The translations under genes were made by a program, and so were the position numbers. A stretch of 34,333 nucleotides of DNA from Candidatus Equadaptatus faecalis (GTDB lineage Bacteria; Synergistota; Synergistia; Synergistales; Synergistaceae): positions 1 through 34,333 of the forward strand of contig JAGHTZ010000081.1 of the NCBI GenBank assembly GCA_018065065.1, written 5' to 3'. Within the stretch, counting starts at the first letter, position 1, and each line of letters starts with the position of its first letter. Shown here piece after piece: positions 7,742 through 26,282 of the stretch. Under the pieces are notes generated by a model, which was given only the letters and a program-made list of their open reading frames with translations, did not search any database and had not been told where the DNA came from.

Positions 7742-8095
7742 TTATTCCGTTATATTTCCAAATATTTTGATTATATCCTGTGTTTTTAGCAGTCTGCCGG
7801 CAGAAACAAGTTTTTCGTTGATTACAAGCCCCGGCATTGACATTGCACCGTAGCCGACTATCTTTTTCATGTCTGTTTCAAAGCCGGGCTGAATTTCAAG
7901 TCCGAGGGCTGAAACTGCTTCTTTCACGCGTTCAAGCAGCGTGTGGCAGTTTGTGCAGCCGTCAGCACCGAGTACGGTGATGCTTTTAATTTTTCCCGAC
8001 ACCGCCTCGGATACCGTTTCCGCTGCTTTTTCGCATGAACAGCAGCACGACGGCTCATTTTTCTTTCCAAGTTTAAATCCGAACATATCAGTCAC
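7742..8095 (-). CDS. Thioredoxin-like redox-active disulfide protein
   Basis: A 117-residue small thioredoxin-fold protein of the glutaredoxin-like type often encoded beside ArsP-type permeases. After a cysteine cluster near the N-terminus (SCCCSCEK, C17, C18, C19, C21) the fold begins at residue 36 (KSITVLGADGCTNCHTL) with the redox pair C47 and C50. The cis-proline loop is seen in MSMPGLVIN. There is no signal peptide, so it acts in the cytosol. AAAGGAG lies nine bases upstream of the ATG at 8095. In related operons this gene adjoins the permease and CcdA; here an AraC-cupin pair separates it from them. The extra cysteines could bind a metal ion or metalloid. Redox function is well supported, partners are inferred. 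Confidence 0.82.
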   Translation of the reverse strand: MTDMFGFKLGKKNEPSCCCSCEKAAETVSEAVSGKIKSITVLGADGCTNCHTLLERVKEAVSALGLEIQPGFETDMKKIVGYGAMSMPGLVINEKLVSAGRLLKTQDIIKIFGNITE

Positions 8096-8135
8096 TCCTT
8101 TTGTATGAATTTATAGTTCTGTCTTTTTCAAAGCG

Positions 8136-8525
8136 TTAGCATAAAGAGGGTATGAACTTTGCAAATAAAAACAAACCTTCTTTTCCGGCCTTTACTTCAT
8201 GTGGTACCTTTTCAGGCATTATAGAAATCACTCCCATTTCATACTTAATTTCCACACCATTGTTTATACAAATCCCATCTCCAGCAATAACTTCATGTGT
8301 CTCAAGCTGTGTCTCATGAGTATGGTTGTCAATTGCCTTGCCTGGTGCAATTCTTACAAGGTGATAACTAAATTTTCCATTGGTATCCTTAGCTGTAACA
8401 ATATGCTTAAGTTCAACACCTTCGAATGTGGGATGCTTTGACCAATTAATATGATCAAAAGCTGCTTCACCCCCAACAAGTACCAATCTTCCTTTGTTAA
8501 ATGCCTCAAACACTTCACTACTCAT
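8136..8525 (-). CDS. Single-domain cupin protein
   Basis: A 129-residue cupin. Motif 1 is complete: HTHETQLETHEVIAGDG has the two histidines, the glutamate and the glycine of G(X)5HXH(X)3-4E(X)6G. Motif 2 is PEKVPHEVKAG with the third histidine. These residues bind a divalent metal in a small beta-barrel. Stand-alone cupins of this size act as isomerases, dioxygenases or small-molecule sensors, and the substrate cannot be read from sequence. GGGAGG precedes the ATG at 8525 by eight bases. It lies 47 bases downstream of the AraC-family regulator in the same direction and is probably its target. Both genes are far AT-richer than the thiol operon around them, pointing to later insertion. Confidence 0.8.
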   Translation of the reverse strand: MSSEVFEAFNKGRLVLVGGEAAFDHINWSKHPTFEGVELKHIVTAKDTNGKFSYHLVRIAPGKAIDNHTHETQLETHEVIAGDGICINNGVEIKYEMGVISIMPEKVPHEVKAGKEGLFLFAKFIPSLC

Positions 8526-8572
8526 AATATTGTCCTCCCTTTATTTGAGTGTAGACCAACTTTACGATGGTT

Positions 8573-9181
8573 CTAATTATTTGCCTTGGATATAATTGCG
8601 GAATTAATATATTCTTTAGGAGAAATTCCTACTTGTCTCTTAAACACTCGGCAGAGATGGCTTTGATCGTAAAATCCAAGTGCCGTTGCAACATCAACTA
8701 CTTTCATTCCGTAAAGTAATAATTCTTGCGCTTTTCTAATTCGGCACTGTAACTGAAATTTATGCGGAGTCAAGCCATTTTCTTCTGAAAATTTTCTAAT
8801 CATATGATACTTGCTTATATGAACTTTTTCAGACATTTGTGCAATATTTATGTCAACTTCTGGATTTCCAATAATATGCTTTCTTATTATGTCCAAATCT
8901 CTTTCAATATCATCCTCTCGAGGAACACAAATGCTTATCATAGAATATCTATCTGAAATAGGTTCTATAGAATGAGGTAAATTCAGTGCTACAGAAAACA
9001 CTTCACCTTCACAACAAATAAAATCTTCATGGTCAATAATAATCTTTACTGTTCCTTTTGTGACAATACCTAGTATGTAATGTCCGGTATGTGTATGTTC
9101 TGGATATGAAATGTTTACCTCTTCAAAACTTACTGTTTCCATTGTTGTCGATATATCTTTTATGAATTCTAGTTTATTCAT
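8573..9181 (-). CDS. AraC-family regulator with N-terminal cupin sensor
   Basis: A 202-residue AraC/XylS-type activator. Residues 15-90 are a compact cupin ligand-binding domain (ISYPEHTHTGHYILGIV..., then LPHSIEPIS). Residues 105-197 hold the two helix-turn-helix motifs: INIAQMSEKVHISKYHMIRK and VVDVATALGFYDQSHLCRVF, followed by the conserved VGISPKEY. It is shorter than the usual 260-300 residues because the sensor domain is reduced, not because the end is cut. AAGGGA precedes the ATG at 9181. The neighbouring cupin gene downstream suggests a two-gene regulator-enzyme unit. Low G+C content compared with the flanking thiol-redox genes suggests acquisition by transfer. Confidence 0.85.
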   Translation of the reverse strand: MNKLEFIKDISTTMETVSFEEVNISYPEHTHTGHYILGIVTKGTVKIIIDHEDFICCEGEVFSVALNLPHSIEPISDRYSMISICVPREDDIERDLDIIRKHIIGNPEVDINIAQMSEKVHISKYHMIRKFSEENGLTPHKFQLQCRIRKAQELLLYGMKVVDVATALGFYDQSHLCRVFKRQVGISPKEYINSAIISKANN

Positions 9182-9228
9182 TTATGTTTCCCTTACTTGT
9201 AAAATTGGATTTGTCAAAAAAAGTGCAG

Positions 9229-9918
9229 TTAAAATGCGAGGTAAAGCATGTATATTCCGGTTATCAAAATTGCAAAACCGGCAGCACAGTTGAACAGCTT
9301 TGAAAACGTTTTGTAACGGCTGCTTGCGCTGAGCTTCTGTGCAAAACCGAGCGAGGTGCCTGCAAGCACCGCCAGAAAGCCGTGTCCCAGCGCGTAAAAC
9401 AGCATAAGCACCGTTCCGCGCACAATACTGCCTTCCGCCGCAATTACCGACAAAAGCGCTATCAGCACTGGCGTAGAGCAGGGTGAGGAGAATATTCCGG
9501 CAAGAATTCCGGCGGCAAACGCCCCCGCACAGCCCGTCAGCCTGCTTTTTGAAACCAGGTTGAGCGAGGGGATAAAATTTGCAATTCCCCAGATCTGAAA
9601 CGCCATCGCAAACATGAGCAGCGCAAGAAATATCAGCCAGCCGCGCGAATAAATGCCGAGCAGTTTTCCGGCAGACACGGCTATTAACGCCATAATGACA
9701 AAGGAAACGGCGCTTCCGAGCGCGAAAACGAGCGAAAGCAGCAGTGCTTTTCTGCCGTTTCTTTCCGCAGTGCCGCCGACGTACGCGATTATAAGCGGAA
9801 TTGAGGGCAGCGAGCACGGCATAAGCGAGGCAAGCACCCCGGCAAAAAGCGCCGAGACCGGAGCAAGCCACGCATTTGCCGAAACAGTTTCCGCAAGCCG
9901 TTCAAGCAGGGCTTCCAT
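9229..9918 (-). CDS. CcdA/DsbD-type transmembrane electron carrier
   Basis: A 229-residue membrane protein with six hydrophobic segments and the two paired cysteines of the CcdA/DsbD core: MPCSLPSIPLI in the first helix and SSPCSTPVLIALL in the fourth. Each is followed by prolines, as in the family. It would take electrons from a cytosolic thioredoxin and pass them to an exported thiol protein, very likely the signal-peptide thioredoxin just upstream. The start ATG shares one base with that gene's stop (TAATG at 9920-9916), so translation is coupled. A second long frame overlaps on the same strand but lacks family motifs and is rejected. Downstream genes (AraC, cupin) are probably later additions. 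Confidence 0.88.
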   Translation of the reverse strand: MEALLERLAETVSANAWLAPVSALFAGVLASLMPCSLPSIPLIIAYVGGTAERNGRKALLLSLVFALGSAVSFVIMALIAVSAGKLLGIYSRGWLIFLALLMFAMAFQIWGIANFIPSLNLVSKSRLTGCAGAFAAGILAGIFSSPCSTPVLIALLSVIAAEGSIVRGTVLMLFYALGHGFLAVLAGTSLGFAQKLSASSRYKTFSKLFNCAAGFAILITGIYMLYLAF

Positions 9919-22370: not shown

Positions 22371-22392
22371 AATAAAATACGAGGTGGACAGT

Positions 22393-23265
22393 ATGAACAA
22401 TTACTTTAATTCTCCGAAACCGGCATACAGTTTTGAAATTTTTCCGCCGAAAGGAACCGGCAGCCTTGCTTCCGTATTCGCCACCATTGACGAACTCGCA
22501 AGTCTCTCCCCCGACCTTATAAGCGTCACCTACGGCGCAGGAGGCACAAGCCGCGAAAATACCGTTGAAATAGCGTCAAAGATACAAAACAGCTACAACA
22601 TCCCCGCCGTAGCGCATTTAACCTGCGTAGGGGCAACAAAAGCCTCTCTGGACACAATTTTGGACAAACTGCAGGCAAACGGAGTCAGCAACATCCTTGC
22701 TCTCCGCGGCGACCTTGTAGAGGGAGAACCGCTCGGGGAATTCAGATATGCGTCTGACCTGACAGAATACGTGAAAAAACATTACAATTTTACTGTTTTC
22801 GCAGCCTGCTATCCGGAGAAACATCCGGAAGCGCCAAGCCTCGAAGCAGACATAGACAATCTGAAAAAAAAGGTGGACGCAGGCGCAGACGTTCTGATTA
22901 CCCAGCTTTTTTTCAGCAATGACGACTTCTTCCGCTTCCGTGACAAGGTACGCGCCGCAGGAATAAACACTCCGATAGAAACGGGCATAATGCCGATAAC
23001 CTCTGCTTCCCAGGTAACGCGCATGGTAAATCTGTGCGGAGCAACTCTGCCCGAAACAATAAAAAGAAAACTCGCCGCATACGGACACAACAGCATGGCA
23101 ATGAAAGAAGCCGGTATAGCTTACGCAGTTGAACAGATATCAGACCTGCTCGCCTCGGAAACCGATGGAATTCACTTGTACACAATGAATCAGCCGTCCA
23201 TTGCAAAACGCATTTCCGAAAGCCTTCGCGGCATACTCTATTCAAGGAGAGTAAAGTGTGAATAA
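22393..23265 (+). CDS. metF: Methylenetetrahydrofolate reductase MetF
   Basis: A 290-residue FAD enzyme that reduces 5,10-methylene-THF to 5-methyl-THF, the methyl donor for MetH. The TIM-barrel signatures are present: YSFEIFPPKG near the N-terminus, SVTYGAGGTSR, AHLTCVGAT, ILALRGD, and later ACYPEKHPEAPS and ITQLFFSNDDFFRF. Length fits the bacterial form without a regulatory domain. The ATG at 22393 follows GAGGTGG by five to six bases; an upstream GTG lies in that site. Its 3' end overlaps the activation-domain gene by eight bases, and metH follows. The electron donor (NADH, or ferredoxin with a partner) cannot be told from sequence; no MetV-like partner is adjacent. Confidence 0.94.
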   Translation: MNNYFNSPKPAYSFEIFPPKGTGSLASVFATIDELASLSPDLISVTYGAGGTSRENTVEIASKIQNSYNIPAVAHLTCVGATKASLDTILDKLQANGVSNILALRGDLVEGEPLGEFRYASDLTEYVKKHYNFTVFAACYPEKHPEAPSLEADIDNLKKKVDAGADVLITQLFFSNDDFFRFRDKVRAAGINTPIETGIMPITSASQVTRMVNLCGATLPETIKRKLAAYGHNSMAMKEAGIAYAVEQISDLLASETDGIHLYTMNQPSIAKRISESLRGILYSRRVKCE

Positions 23266-23923
23266 AATTCCGCCCTCTGTTTTGAAAGAAGCACTGCGAC
23301 TGCTCGGTGCAGATACAGAAGCTGACAGCGGGCTGCTTGACGACCTTAAGCGTGCATACGCGCAGCTGCTGGAAGTATCGAAACCGAGAACGGTGTACAA
23401 AAAAACTGCAGTCAGACAGACAGAAAATGGGGTGCTCCTTGACGGCACAGAATTTGTGAGCAAAGATTTGAAAAAGCTTTTTTCAAACTCCTCTCACGCC
23501 TTTATACTCGCGGCAACCTTAGGCGCAGAAACCGACGCGCTTTTAAGAAGAAAAATGACTGAAAATATGGCTGACGCGGCATTGTTTGATGCATGTGCAA
23601 ATGCAGAGACAGAGCGGGTTTGCGACACTTTGGAACAGCAGCTTTCTGCTGAAATCAGCAAGGGGGAATACCTGACAAAACGGTTCTCTCCGGGGTACGG
23701 TGACGTGGATTTAGAATATTCATCAGTATTAGTCAATATCCTTAATGCCCAAAAGGCAATAGGATTGGCTTGCACGGCATCGAAAATGCTGGTGCCGTCT
23801 AAATCGGTAACGGCTTTTATAGGAATTTCAGCCATTAAAGAAGACCGGCGCAGACGCTGTGACGAATGCGCGGCAAACACGGACTGCGTCTGGAAAAAAC
23901 GGGGTGAGCGCTGTGGCGTTTAA
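23258..23923 (+). CDS. Stand-alone methionine synthase activation-domain protein
   Basis: A 221-residue protein equal to the C-terminal reactivation domain of full-length MetH, encoded separately. The signature RFSPGYGDVDLEYSSVLVNI and PSKSVTAFIGIS, which bind S-adenosylmethionine, is at about residues 143-190. The C-terminus holds four cysteines (CDECAANTDC... and GERCGV), seen in separate versions and possibly an Fe-S site. It would let MetH recover from cob(II)alamin by reductive methylation. The start is GTG at 23258, eight bases after AAGGAG and overlapping the end of metF. metH begins inside its last codons. Split MetH plus activation protein is known in Thermotoga and several anaerobes. 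Confidence 0.85.
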   Translation: MNKIPPSVLKEALRLLGADTEADSGLLDDLKRAYAQLLEVSKPRTVYKKTAVRQTENGVLLDGTEFVSKDLKKLFSNSSHAFILAATLGAETDALLRRKMTENMADAALFDACANAETERVCDTLEQQLSAEISKGEYLTKRFSPGYGDVDLEYSSVLVNILNAQKAIGLACTASKMLVPSKSVTAFIGISAIKEDRRRRCDECAANTDCVWKKRGERCGV

Positions 23924-25880
23924 TTTTAACACGGACAAAATCATACTCTTTGACGGAGCAATGGGCACCATGCTCCAAAAACTTGGCCTGAAAGCAGGCG
24001 AACTGCCTGAAATGCTCAATCTGACCGCAGGCGAAAAGATCACCGCAATCCACAGGACCTACCTCGAAGCAGGTGCAGACGCCGTTTACACCAATACCTT
24101 CGGCATTAACCGTTTTAAAACGCAGACTGCCGGCGTGTCTGTTGAAACAATCGTAAAAGCCGCCGTACAAAACGCAAGAAACGCCTGCAAAGACTTTCAG
24201 GACAAGGCCGTTGCTCTTGACATAGGCCCCTGCGGCAAAATACTCAAACCTGCGGGAGACCTTGAATTTGAAGATGCCGTAAAAGTCTTCGCAGAGGTTG
24301 TGCGCGCCGGAAGAGACGCGGACTTCATTATACTTGAAACCTTTACGGATCTCTACGAACTGAAAGCGGCGGTGCTTGCGGCAAAAGAAAATTCAGAACT
24401 GCCGATAGCAGCAACAATGAGCTTTGAAGCTGACGGCACATCGTTCTTCGGAGCAACGATAGAAACAATGACGGCAACGCTTGAAGGGCTCGGAGTTTCC
24501 GCGCTTGGCTTAAACTGTTCTCTTGGACCAAAACAGCTGGAACCGCTTGTTGACAGATTTCTTGCCTGCAGTCCACTGCCGGTAATCATAAAACCTAACG
24601 CGGGGCTCCCTGTCATAAAAGACGGGCAGACCTGCTACGACGTAACAAAAGAAGAATTTGCAAAAACTGTGGCAGGCTTTGCGAAAAAAGGCACCGCAAT
24701 AGTCGGAGGCTGCTGCGGAACAACACCGGAATACATTGCACTGCTTAAAAAAGAGCTGGACGGCGTCACACGCAAAAGCTGCAAAGCTGAAGAAAAAACC
24801 GTTCTCTGCAGTGCGTCTAAGCTTGCAGAGGTAGGCGGAAGGCTGAACATTATAGGCGAAAGAATAAATCCCACGGGCAAAAAACGTTTGCAGCAGGCTC
24901 TTCGCGAAAAAGACTATTCATATCTGCTGCGCGAAGCGGTAAAACAGCAGGAACAGGGCGCCGACGTGCTTGACGTAAACGTTGGTCTGCCTGAACTGGA
25001 CGAAACCGAAATGCTTGTAAAAGCCGTGAAAGAGATACAATCCGTAACAGATCTGCCGCTTCAGCTTGACTCGTCAAACAGCGAAGCGCTTGAACGCGCG
25101 GCACGCATTTACAACGGCAAACCGCTGATAAACTCCGTCAACGGCAAACACGAATCTCTGGAAAGCATTCTTCCTATTGTAAAAAAATACGGCTGCGCCG
25201 TGCTTGGGCTTACGCTTGACGAAAAAGGCATACCGCAGACTGCGGAAGAACGCGCTGAAATTGCCGGCAGAATTATAGAAGCAGCAGAAAAATACGGCAT
25301 ACCGCGCAGGAACGTACTGATTGACTGTCTTGTGATGACAGTCTCGGCACAGCAGAAACAGGCGCTTGAAACACTGAAAGCGGTAAAGCTGGTCAAAGAA
25401 AAATACGGCGTAAAAACCGTTCTCGGAATAAGCAACATCTCCTTCGGGCTGCCTGCAAGAAGCCTTGTCAACGAAACAATGCTCTCTCTTGCTGTCAAAA
25501 ACGGACTCGACATGGCAATCTACAACCCGTTGGAAGTCAGGCTTGAAGAAAACGAAAAAGCCGTGCGCGTGCTTCTTGGGGAAGATAAAGATTGCGAACA
25601 ATTTATTTCGGAATACACAGGCTGGACAAACGAAAAAACCGAAATAAAAACGCAATGCGGCGGAATGGAATACTCCGTACTGCACGGTTTAAAAGAAGAA
25701 GCAAAAAACGATGCTGATCTGCTGCTTGAAAAGTTTTCACCGCTTGACGTTATTGAAAAACATATTGTTCCGGCACTCGACAAAGTGGGAACACTTTACG
25801 AAGAGGGGAAACTGTTCCTTCCGCAGCTTATCAAAGCGGCAGAAGCGGCAAAAAGCGCCTGCGACACGGTTAAAAACTGA
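23913..25880 (+). CDS. metH: Methionine synthase MetH, Hcy-, folate- and cap-domain part
   Basis: Cobalamin-dependent methionine synthase transfers a methyl group from 5-methyl-THF through cobalamin to homocysteine. This 655-residue part has the homocysteine-binding barrel (about 1-285; FDGAMGTMLQ, GLNCSLGP and GGCCGTTPE with the zinc cysteines), the folate-binding barrel (about 310-570; NIIGERINPTG, VLDVNVGLPE, PLQLDSSN, GISNISFGLP) and the helical cap of the cobalamin domain (about 590-650; FSPLDVIEKHIVPAL, LFLPQLIKAAEAAKSA). It then meets TGA at 25878-25880, while the same frame continues as the cobalamin domain up to 26282. Without that domain the enzyme could not hold cobalamin. The start GTG 23913 follows GGGGTGA by five bases and overlaps the preceding gene by 11 bases. 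The activation domain is separate, as in Thermotoga. Confidence 0.9.
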   Translation: MAFNFNTDKIILFDGAMGTMLQKLGLKAGELPEMLNLTAGEKITAIHRTYLEAGADAVYTNTFGINRFKTQTAGVSVETIVKAAVQNARNACKDFQDKAVALDIGPCGKILKPAGDLEFEDAVKVFAEVVRAGRDADFIILETFTDLYELKAAVLAAKENSELPIAATMSFEADGTSFFGATIETMTATLEGLGVSALGLNCSLGPKQLEPLVDRFLACSPLPVIIKPNAGLPVIKDGQTCYDVTKEEFAKTVAGFAKKGTAIVGGCCGTTPEYIALLKKELDGVTRKSCKAEEKTVLCSASKLAEVGGRLNIIGERINPTGKKRLQQALREKDYSYLLREAVKQQEQGADVLDVNVGLPELDETEMLVKAVKEIQSVTDLPLQLDSSNSEALERAARIYNGKPLINSVNGKHESLESILPIVKKYGCAVLGLTLDEKGIPQTAEERAEIAGRIIEAAEKYGIPRRNVLIDCLVMTVSAQQKQALETLKAVKLVKEKYGVKTVLGISNISFGLPARSLVNETMLSLAVKNGLDMAIYNPLEVRLEENEKAVRVLLGEDKDCEQFISEYTGWTNEKTEIKTQCGGMEYSVLHGLKEEAKNDADLLLEKFSPLDVIEKHIVPALDKVGTLYEEGKLFLPQLIKAAEAAKSACDTVKN

Positions 25881-26282
25881 CTGTCGGCAGGAGACGGCGA
25901 AGCCTCTGATAAAAAAATCGTGCTTGCGACCGTACACGGCGACATACACGACATAGGCAAAAACATTGCAAAAGTTATTCTTGAAAACTACAACTATAAA
26001 ATAACAGACCTGGGACGCGACGTTCCCGCGGAAGAAATATGCGCTGCAGTCAAAGAGCAGGGGGCAAAACTTGCCGGCCTGAGCGCACTCATGACAACCA
26101 CCGTGGGCAGTATGAAACAAAGCATCGAACTGCTGCGCCGCGACTGTCCTGACGTAAAAATAATGGTCGGAGGTGCCGTACTCTCCGAAGCTCTGGCAAA
26201 ACAGCTCGGCGCAGACTTTTACGTTGCGGACGCTCTTGCGGACGTGCGTGCGGCTGAACAGGTGTTTGACAGTGCAGATTAA
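25881..26282 (+). pseudogene. metH: MetH cobalamin-binding domain after in-frame TGA
   Basis: The frame of metH continues without further stops from 25881 to TAA at 26282. It encodes LSAGDGEASDKK as linker, then KIVLATVHGDIHDIGKN with the DXHXXG cobalamin-ligand motif at 25941-25958, and the rest of the Rossmann-like domain (LSALMTTTVGSM and VMVGGAVLS-like segments). Together with the upstream part it gives about 789 codons, matching MetH enzymes without activation domain. The first usable start codon in frame is GTG at 25920, which would begin inside the first beta strand and has no ribosome binding site at proper spacing (AGGAG at 25889-25893 is 26 bases away). So it is either a broken metH, a readthrough product (TGA followed by C is leaky), or a sequencing error. 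Sequence conservation shows no decay. Confidence 0.7.

Follow-up and report, generated by a model that had tools for sequence, protein, structure and literature searches.

An in-frame TGA between the cap and cobalamin domains of metH in Candidatus Equadaptatus faecalis, probably a recent nonsense mutation

Introduction

What does a single in-frame TGA mean in an otherwise open metH gene, at the very point where the encoded methionine synthase passes from its cap to its cobalamin (B12) domain? Such a codon stands in a 34,333-nucleotide stretch of Candidatus Equadaptatus faecalis DNA, here called the window, which is contig 81 (JAGHTZ010000081.1) of a 1.60-Mb draft genome in 100 contigs. The relatives of this genome are Synergistaceae, mainly uncultured. 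A preliminary description of the window offered four readings of the codon: a fresh nonsense mutation, a base-call or assembly error, programmed readthrough giving two forms of the enzyme, and a true splitting of the cap from the B12 domain. If the stop were read through or the two pieces cooperated, MetH would be parted between cap and B12 domain, an arrangement that to our knowledge occurs nowhere else.

Results

The metH frame opens with a GTG preceded by GGGGTGA, reaches the TGA at codon 656 and continues through 133 open codons to a TAA at positions 26280 to 26282 (Table 1). In Pfam searches, the upstream part carried S-methyl_trans (residues 12 to 281), Pterin_bind (315 to 536) and the cap, B12-binding_2 (587 to 653), and the B12-binding domain began at residue 12 of the downstream piece, about codon 668. 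The TGA comes 3 codons after the cap profile ends and 12 before the B12 profile starts, and thus at the end of the last cap helix, bordering the linker. The B12 motifs GDIHDIGKN, LSALMTTT and VGGAVL are all retained, as are the homocysteine-domain cysteines of GLNCS and GGCCG; in alignments with 8ssc and relatives, both the DxHxxG ligand motif and the zinc cysteines are in place. These results bear out the preliminary description, which had placed the stop at the cap-cobalamin border, in frame and followed by C, with an open frame on both sides and the cobalamin-binding residues kept.

Table 1. Coordinates of metH, its domains and its upstream neighbors in the window
Feature	Positions	Strand	Evidence
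metF, methylenetetrahydrofolate reductase, intact	22384-23265	+	Sequence; comparison with congener
Separate MetH activation-domain gene (TM0269-like, PDB 1j6r), overlapping the metH start	23258-23923	+	PF02965 and PDB match
metH, with homocysteine, folate, cap and B12 domains, without activation domain, with one in-frame TGA	23913-26282	+	Pfam; frame unbroken in congener (G001/L039)
Homocysteine S-methyltransferase domain (PF02574), the sole one found in the genome	23946-24755	+	Pfam
B12-binding cap domain (PF02607)	25671-25871	+	Pfam, residues 587-653
In-frame TGA; AGA in congener	25878-25880	+	Sequence; comparison with congener and relatives
B12 (cobalamin) domain (PF02310) past the stop, under purifying selection	25881-26282	+	Pfam, dN/dS

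Apart from the stop, the gene belongs to a kind already known. Its domains follow the order PF02574, PF00809, PF02607, PF02310, with no PF02965 on the chain, which is whole only if the TGA is passed. The nearest solved structures to its product are 1q7m, a homocysteine-folate fragment, and the bacterial MetH structures 8ssc and 8g3h. The activation domain (PF02965, 27 bits against a cut-off of 25) is encoded by the gene just upstream, whose sole PDB match is 1j6r (E = 4.9e-11), a 214-residue chain named methionine synthase that we take to be TM0269 of Thermotoga maritima. The gene thus encodes a B12-dependent methionine synthase of the Thermotoga TM0268 type, a single chain whose activation domain comes from a separate gene; the TM0268/TM0269 pair is described by Huang et al. 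(2007), as cited in PMC7857596. The activation gene is intact both in the window and in the congener compared, and it is preceded by metF; relative to the congener, the two neighbors are intact and constrained.

The preliminary description had proposed reading the interrupted codon in MetH of relatives. In the one congener compared (G001, contig L039), the codon is AGA (Arg) within an unbroken 819-codon frame, and the two genes differ at 170 of 2370 bases (93% nucleotide identity). Of 188 genomes scanned across the phylum, 156 yielded the region, and among the matches listed a mid-gene stop in metH occurred only in the present genome; stops flagged in G045, G049 and G052 proved to be the normal ends of those genes. 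The 56 distinct relatives that were aligned show E, N, A, S, V, K, R, I, L, H or Q in this column, and none of them has Cys or Trp there. Given this variety, many sense codons appear to be tolerated at the position, and nothing in the aligned sequences suggests selenocysteine or tryptophan there. None of the relatives examined has a separate B12-domain gene at the same break; all are single-chain at this point.

To date the stop, we compared constraint on its two sides. Relative to the congener, dN/dS was 0.085 upstream of the stop and 0.117 downstream; the B12 domain proper gave 0.09, the same value as the whole gene, in keeping with the lack of decay noted in the preliminary description. We also made a simple Poisson estimate on the assumption of equal branches. 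Had the part past the stop been unconstrained for 20% of the lineage's time since the split, it should show about 14 differences that change an amino acid, versus 8 seen (P = 0.05); for 30% of that time, P = 0.007. Loss of constraint over more than about 20% of the present branch is therefore unlikely. From the low dN/dS past the stop, it follows that the stop arose very recently, does not exist in the living cells or has no effect.

TGA is the leakiest stop codon, and here it is followed by C and by a constrained frame, which would speak for a codon decoded often enough to yield two enzyme forms. In E. coli reporters, readthrough of premature TGA codons averages 0.89% at 37°C and rises to 5.6% at 18°C (PMC11126739), and at such leakage rates a little full-length enzyme would be likely here. 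Release factor RF2 is present (481 bits), and in a sampled third of the genome 55 of the 307 ORFs that reach 200 amino acids (18%) terminate in TGA. Neither SelB nor tRNA-Sec reached the cut-off, and the best tRNA-Sec matches were ordinary tRNAs for Leu, Gly, Ser, Tyr and Arg; with no Cys at the column in the 56 relatives, selenocysteine at the TGA was rejected. The tRNA changes that let bacteria read UGA have been described (PMC13092985), and the tRNA-Trp found in this genome, with its canonical 5-bp anticodon stem, A9 and G24, has none of them. No tRNA with a UCA anticodon was found in the scanned third of the genome. Reassignment of TGA to sense was rejected on these grounds: RF2 is present, TGA serves as a normal stop, tRNA-Trp is canonical, and the scanned part holds no UCA anticodon. 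RNA folding 3' of the stop is also ordinary (z = −1.6, versus −1.55 in the congener, which has no stop). Programmed readthrough is not supported: even the congener lacks the stop, as does every other relative examined, no selenocysteine apparatus was found, and tRNA-Trp is canonical. We also know of no use for a truncated MetH that ends on its cap. Functional readthrough is, on this evidence, very unlikely.

We next considered whether the downstream piece could be made as a protein of its own. The preliminary description had found no start with a proper ribosome binding site past the TGA, and neither did we: the first in-frame ATG, GTG or TTG is a GTG at 25920, which falls within the first beta strand of the B12 domain and lacks such a site, the nearest AGGAG-like stretch being about 25 bases upstream. 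Internal restart at this GTG was rejected accordingly. That MetH is truly split into two co-acting proteins might be suggested by the position of the stop at a domain border and by the ability of MetH to work in pieces, as in Phaeobacter inhibens (PMC5764234); however, the three-part enzyme of that species keeps cap and B12 domain on one protein. A true split fails because it has no start signal, because the relatives examined are unbroken single chains here and because the upstream piece would merely end on the cap. We consider it the most unlikely of all the readings. Also very unlikely is an arrangement peculiar to this species, arising by readthrough or by cooperation of the halves, in which the cell would have both a full-length and a cap-only MetH and tune methyl transfer by them.

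How much the loss of MetH would cost depends on what else in the genome can make methionine. Searches of the genome found no MetE or core methionine synthase (PF01717), no second close B12-domain protein able to complement metH, and the PF02574 homocysteine methyltransferase domain in a single copy, that of metH; rescue by any of these was accordingly rejected. A full-length PLP enzyme of Cys/Met metabolism, of the homocysteine-forming type, is present and intact. Judged by gene content, MetH looks like the only methionine synthase of the genome. With a sole synthase and with metF, the activation gene and the PLP enzyme all intact, loss of metH would be costly unless methionine were supplied. 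Either methionine synthesis has just been lost and the organism lives on supplied methionine, or the base in the assembly is wrong.

To judge whether the break is one of many, we surveyed about 536 kb of the source genome against 609 kb of the congener. Among 122 congener ORFs placed in the source genome, metH was the only clear mid-gene nonsense. The other flagged cases, two of which were inspected in detail, look like ordinary gene ends, differing choice of start site, ORFs on the antisense strand, a locus rearrangement or, for lysC-asd, a run of N in the congener; the TAG flagged close to prfA terminates the upstream gene. Genome-wide decay and generally poor base quality were thus rejected. 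Since some 120 compared ORFs show no other clear nonsense, the metH break stands alone, as a single mutation or a single wrong base would, and this speaks against recoding.

The survey also brought out two differences in gene content or assembly. In the congener (contig L139, 8342 to 10165), the assembly artificially fuses lysC and asd through a run of N, where about 410 bases are absent; in the source genome (contig L107, 1792 to 4025, minus strand), they are two normal genes. In the window (7742 to 9918), about 1.1 kb lies between a CcdA-like gene (9229 to 9918, minus strand) and a thioredoxin-like gene (7742 to 8095, minus strand). This stretch carries an AraC-type regulator (8573 to 9181) and a cupin-like protein (8136 to 8525) and appears to be missing at the same place in the congener (contig L209, 2736 to 3746).

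Discussion

Taken together, these data suggest that the TGA is probably a very recent single nonsense substitution in an ordinary one-chain MetH. By comparison with the congener, one substitution would have turned AGA into TGA very recently. Ribosomes would then stop past the cap and release a 655-residue protein without a B12 domain, a product expected to carry out essentially no methyl transfer from methyl-folate. Ordinary leakage at the TGA would still yield about 1% of the enzyme at full length. Either the cell would have to obtain methionine from outside, or the allele would be a minority or transient one.

The sole methionine synthase and the intact partner genes count against a nonsense mutation, and the same evidence equally fits a wrong consensus base. 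It is possible, rather than probable, that the assembler called the base wrongly or picked a minority allele and that living cells carry an intact metH. A single isolated base without decay, in the only methionine synthase found and beside intact partner genes, within a draft assembly of 100 contigs, is what such an error would look like. Against it, some 120 other compared ORFs show no comparable break, so that base quality is generally good, and single substitution errors are rare in short-read consensus sequences. We place the nonsense mutation first on the prior that, in short-read assemblies, genuine single-nonsense alleles are more common than single substitution errors. Of the four readings in the preliminary description, then, fresh mutation and base-call or assembly error both agree with everything observed, and neither programmed readthrough nor a true split is supported.

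The case illustrates that one base of a draft genome can mimic a new enzyme architecture; as it stands, it matters little. If the stop is real and fixed, it predicts a need for outside methionine. A literature search for nonsense alleles of metH or for stop codons in metagenome assemblies found nothing relevant. The closest likeness is to recent single-nonsense bacterial pseudogenes, which share with metH a single substitution, an undisturbed frame to either side, too little time for decay and absence from the sister species; no feature that we tested distinguishes the metH case from them.

Among known methionine synthases, that of P. inhibens likewise spreads its chemistry over separate proteins (PGA1_c13370, PGA1_c16040 and MtbC/PGA1_c13350; PMC5764234). 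There, however, cap and B12 domain share one protein and each protein has its own gene, whereas here the break would part the two domains, and the second piece lacks a start. A split between cap and B12 domain would therefore be new, and nothing that we found favors one. The nearer counterpart is the TM0268/TM0269 pair of T. maritima, whose structures (the 1q7m family and 1j6r) are the best PDB matches for the metH and activation-gene products. As in that species, a homocysteine/folate/cap/B12 chain is encoded next to an activation gene. Here the activation gene lies upstream of metH, whereas TM0269 is reported downstream of TM0268, and, unlike TM0268, the present gene carries one in-frame TGA between its cap and B12 domain.
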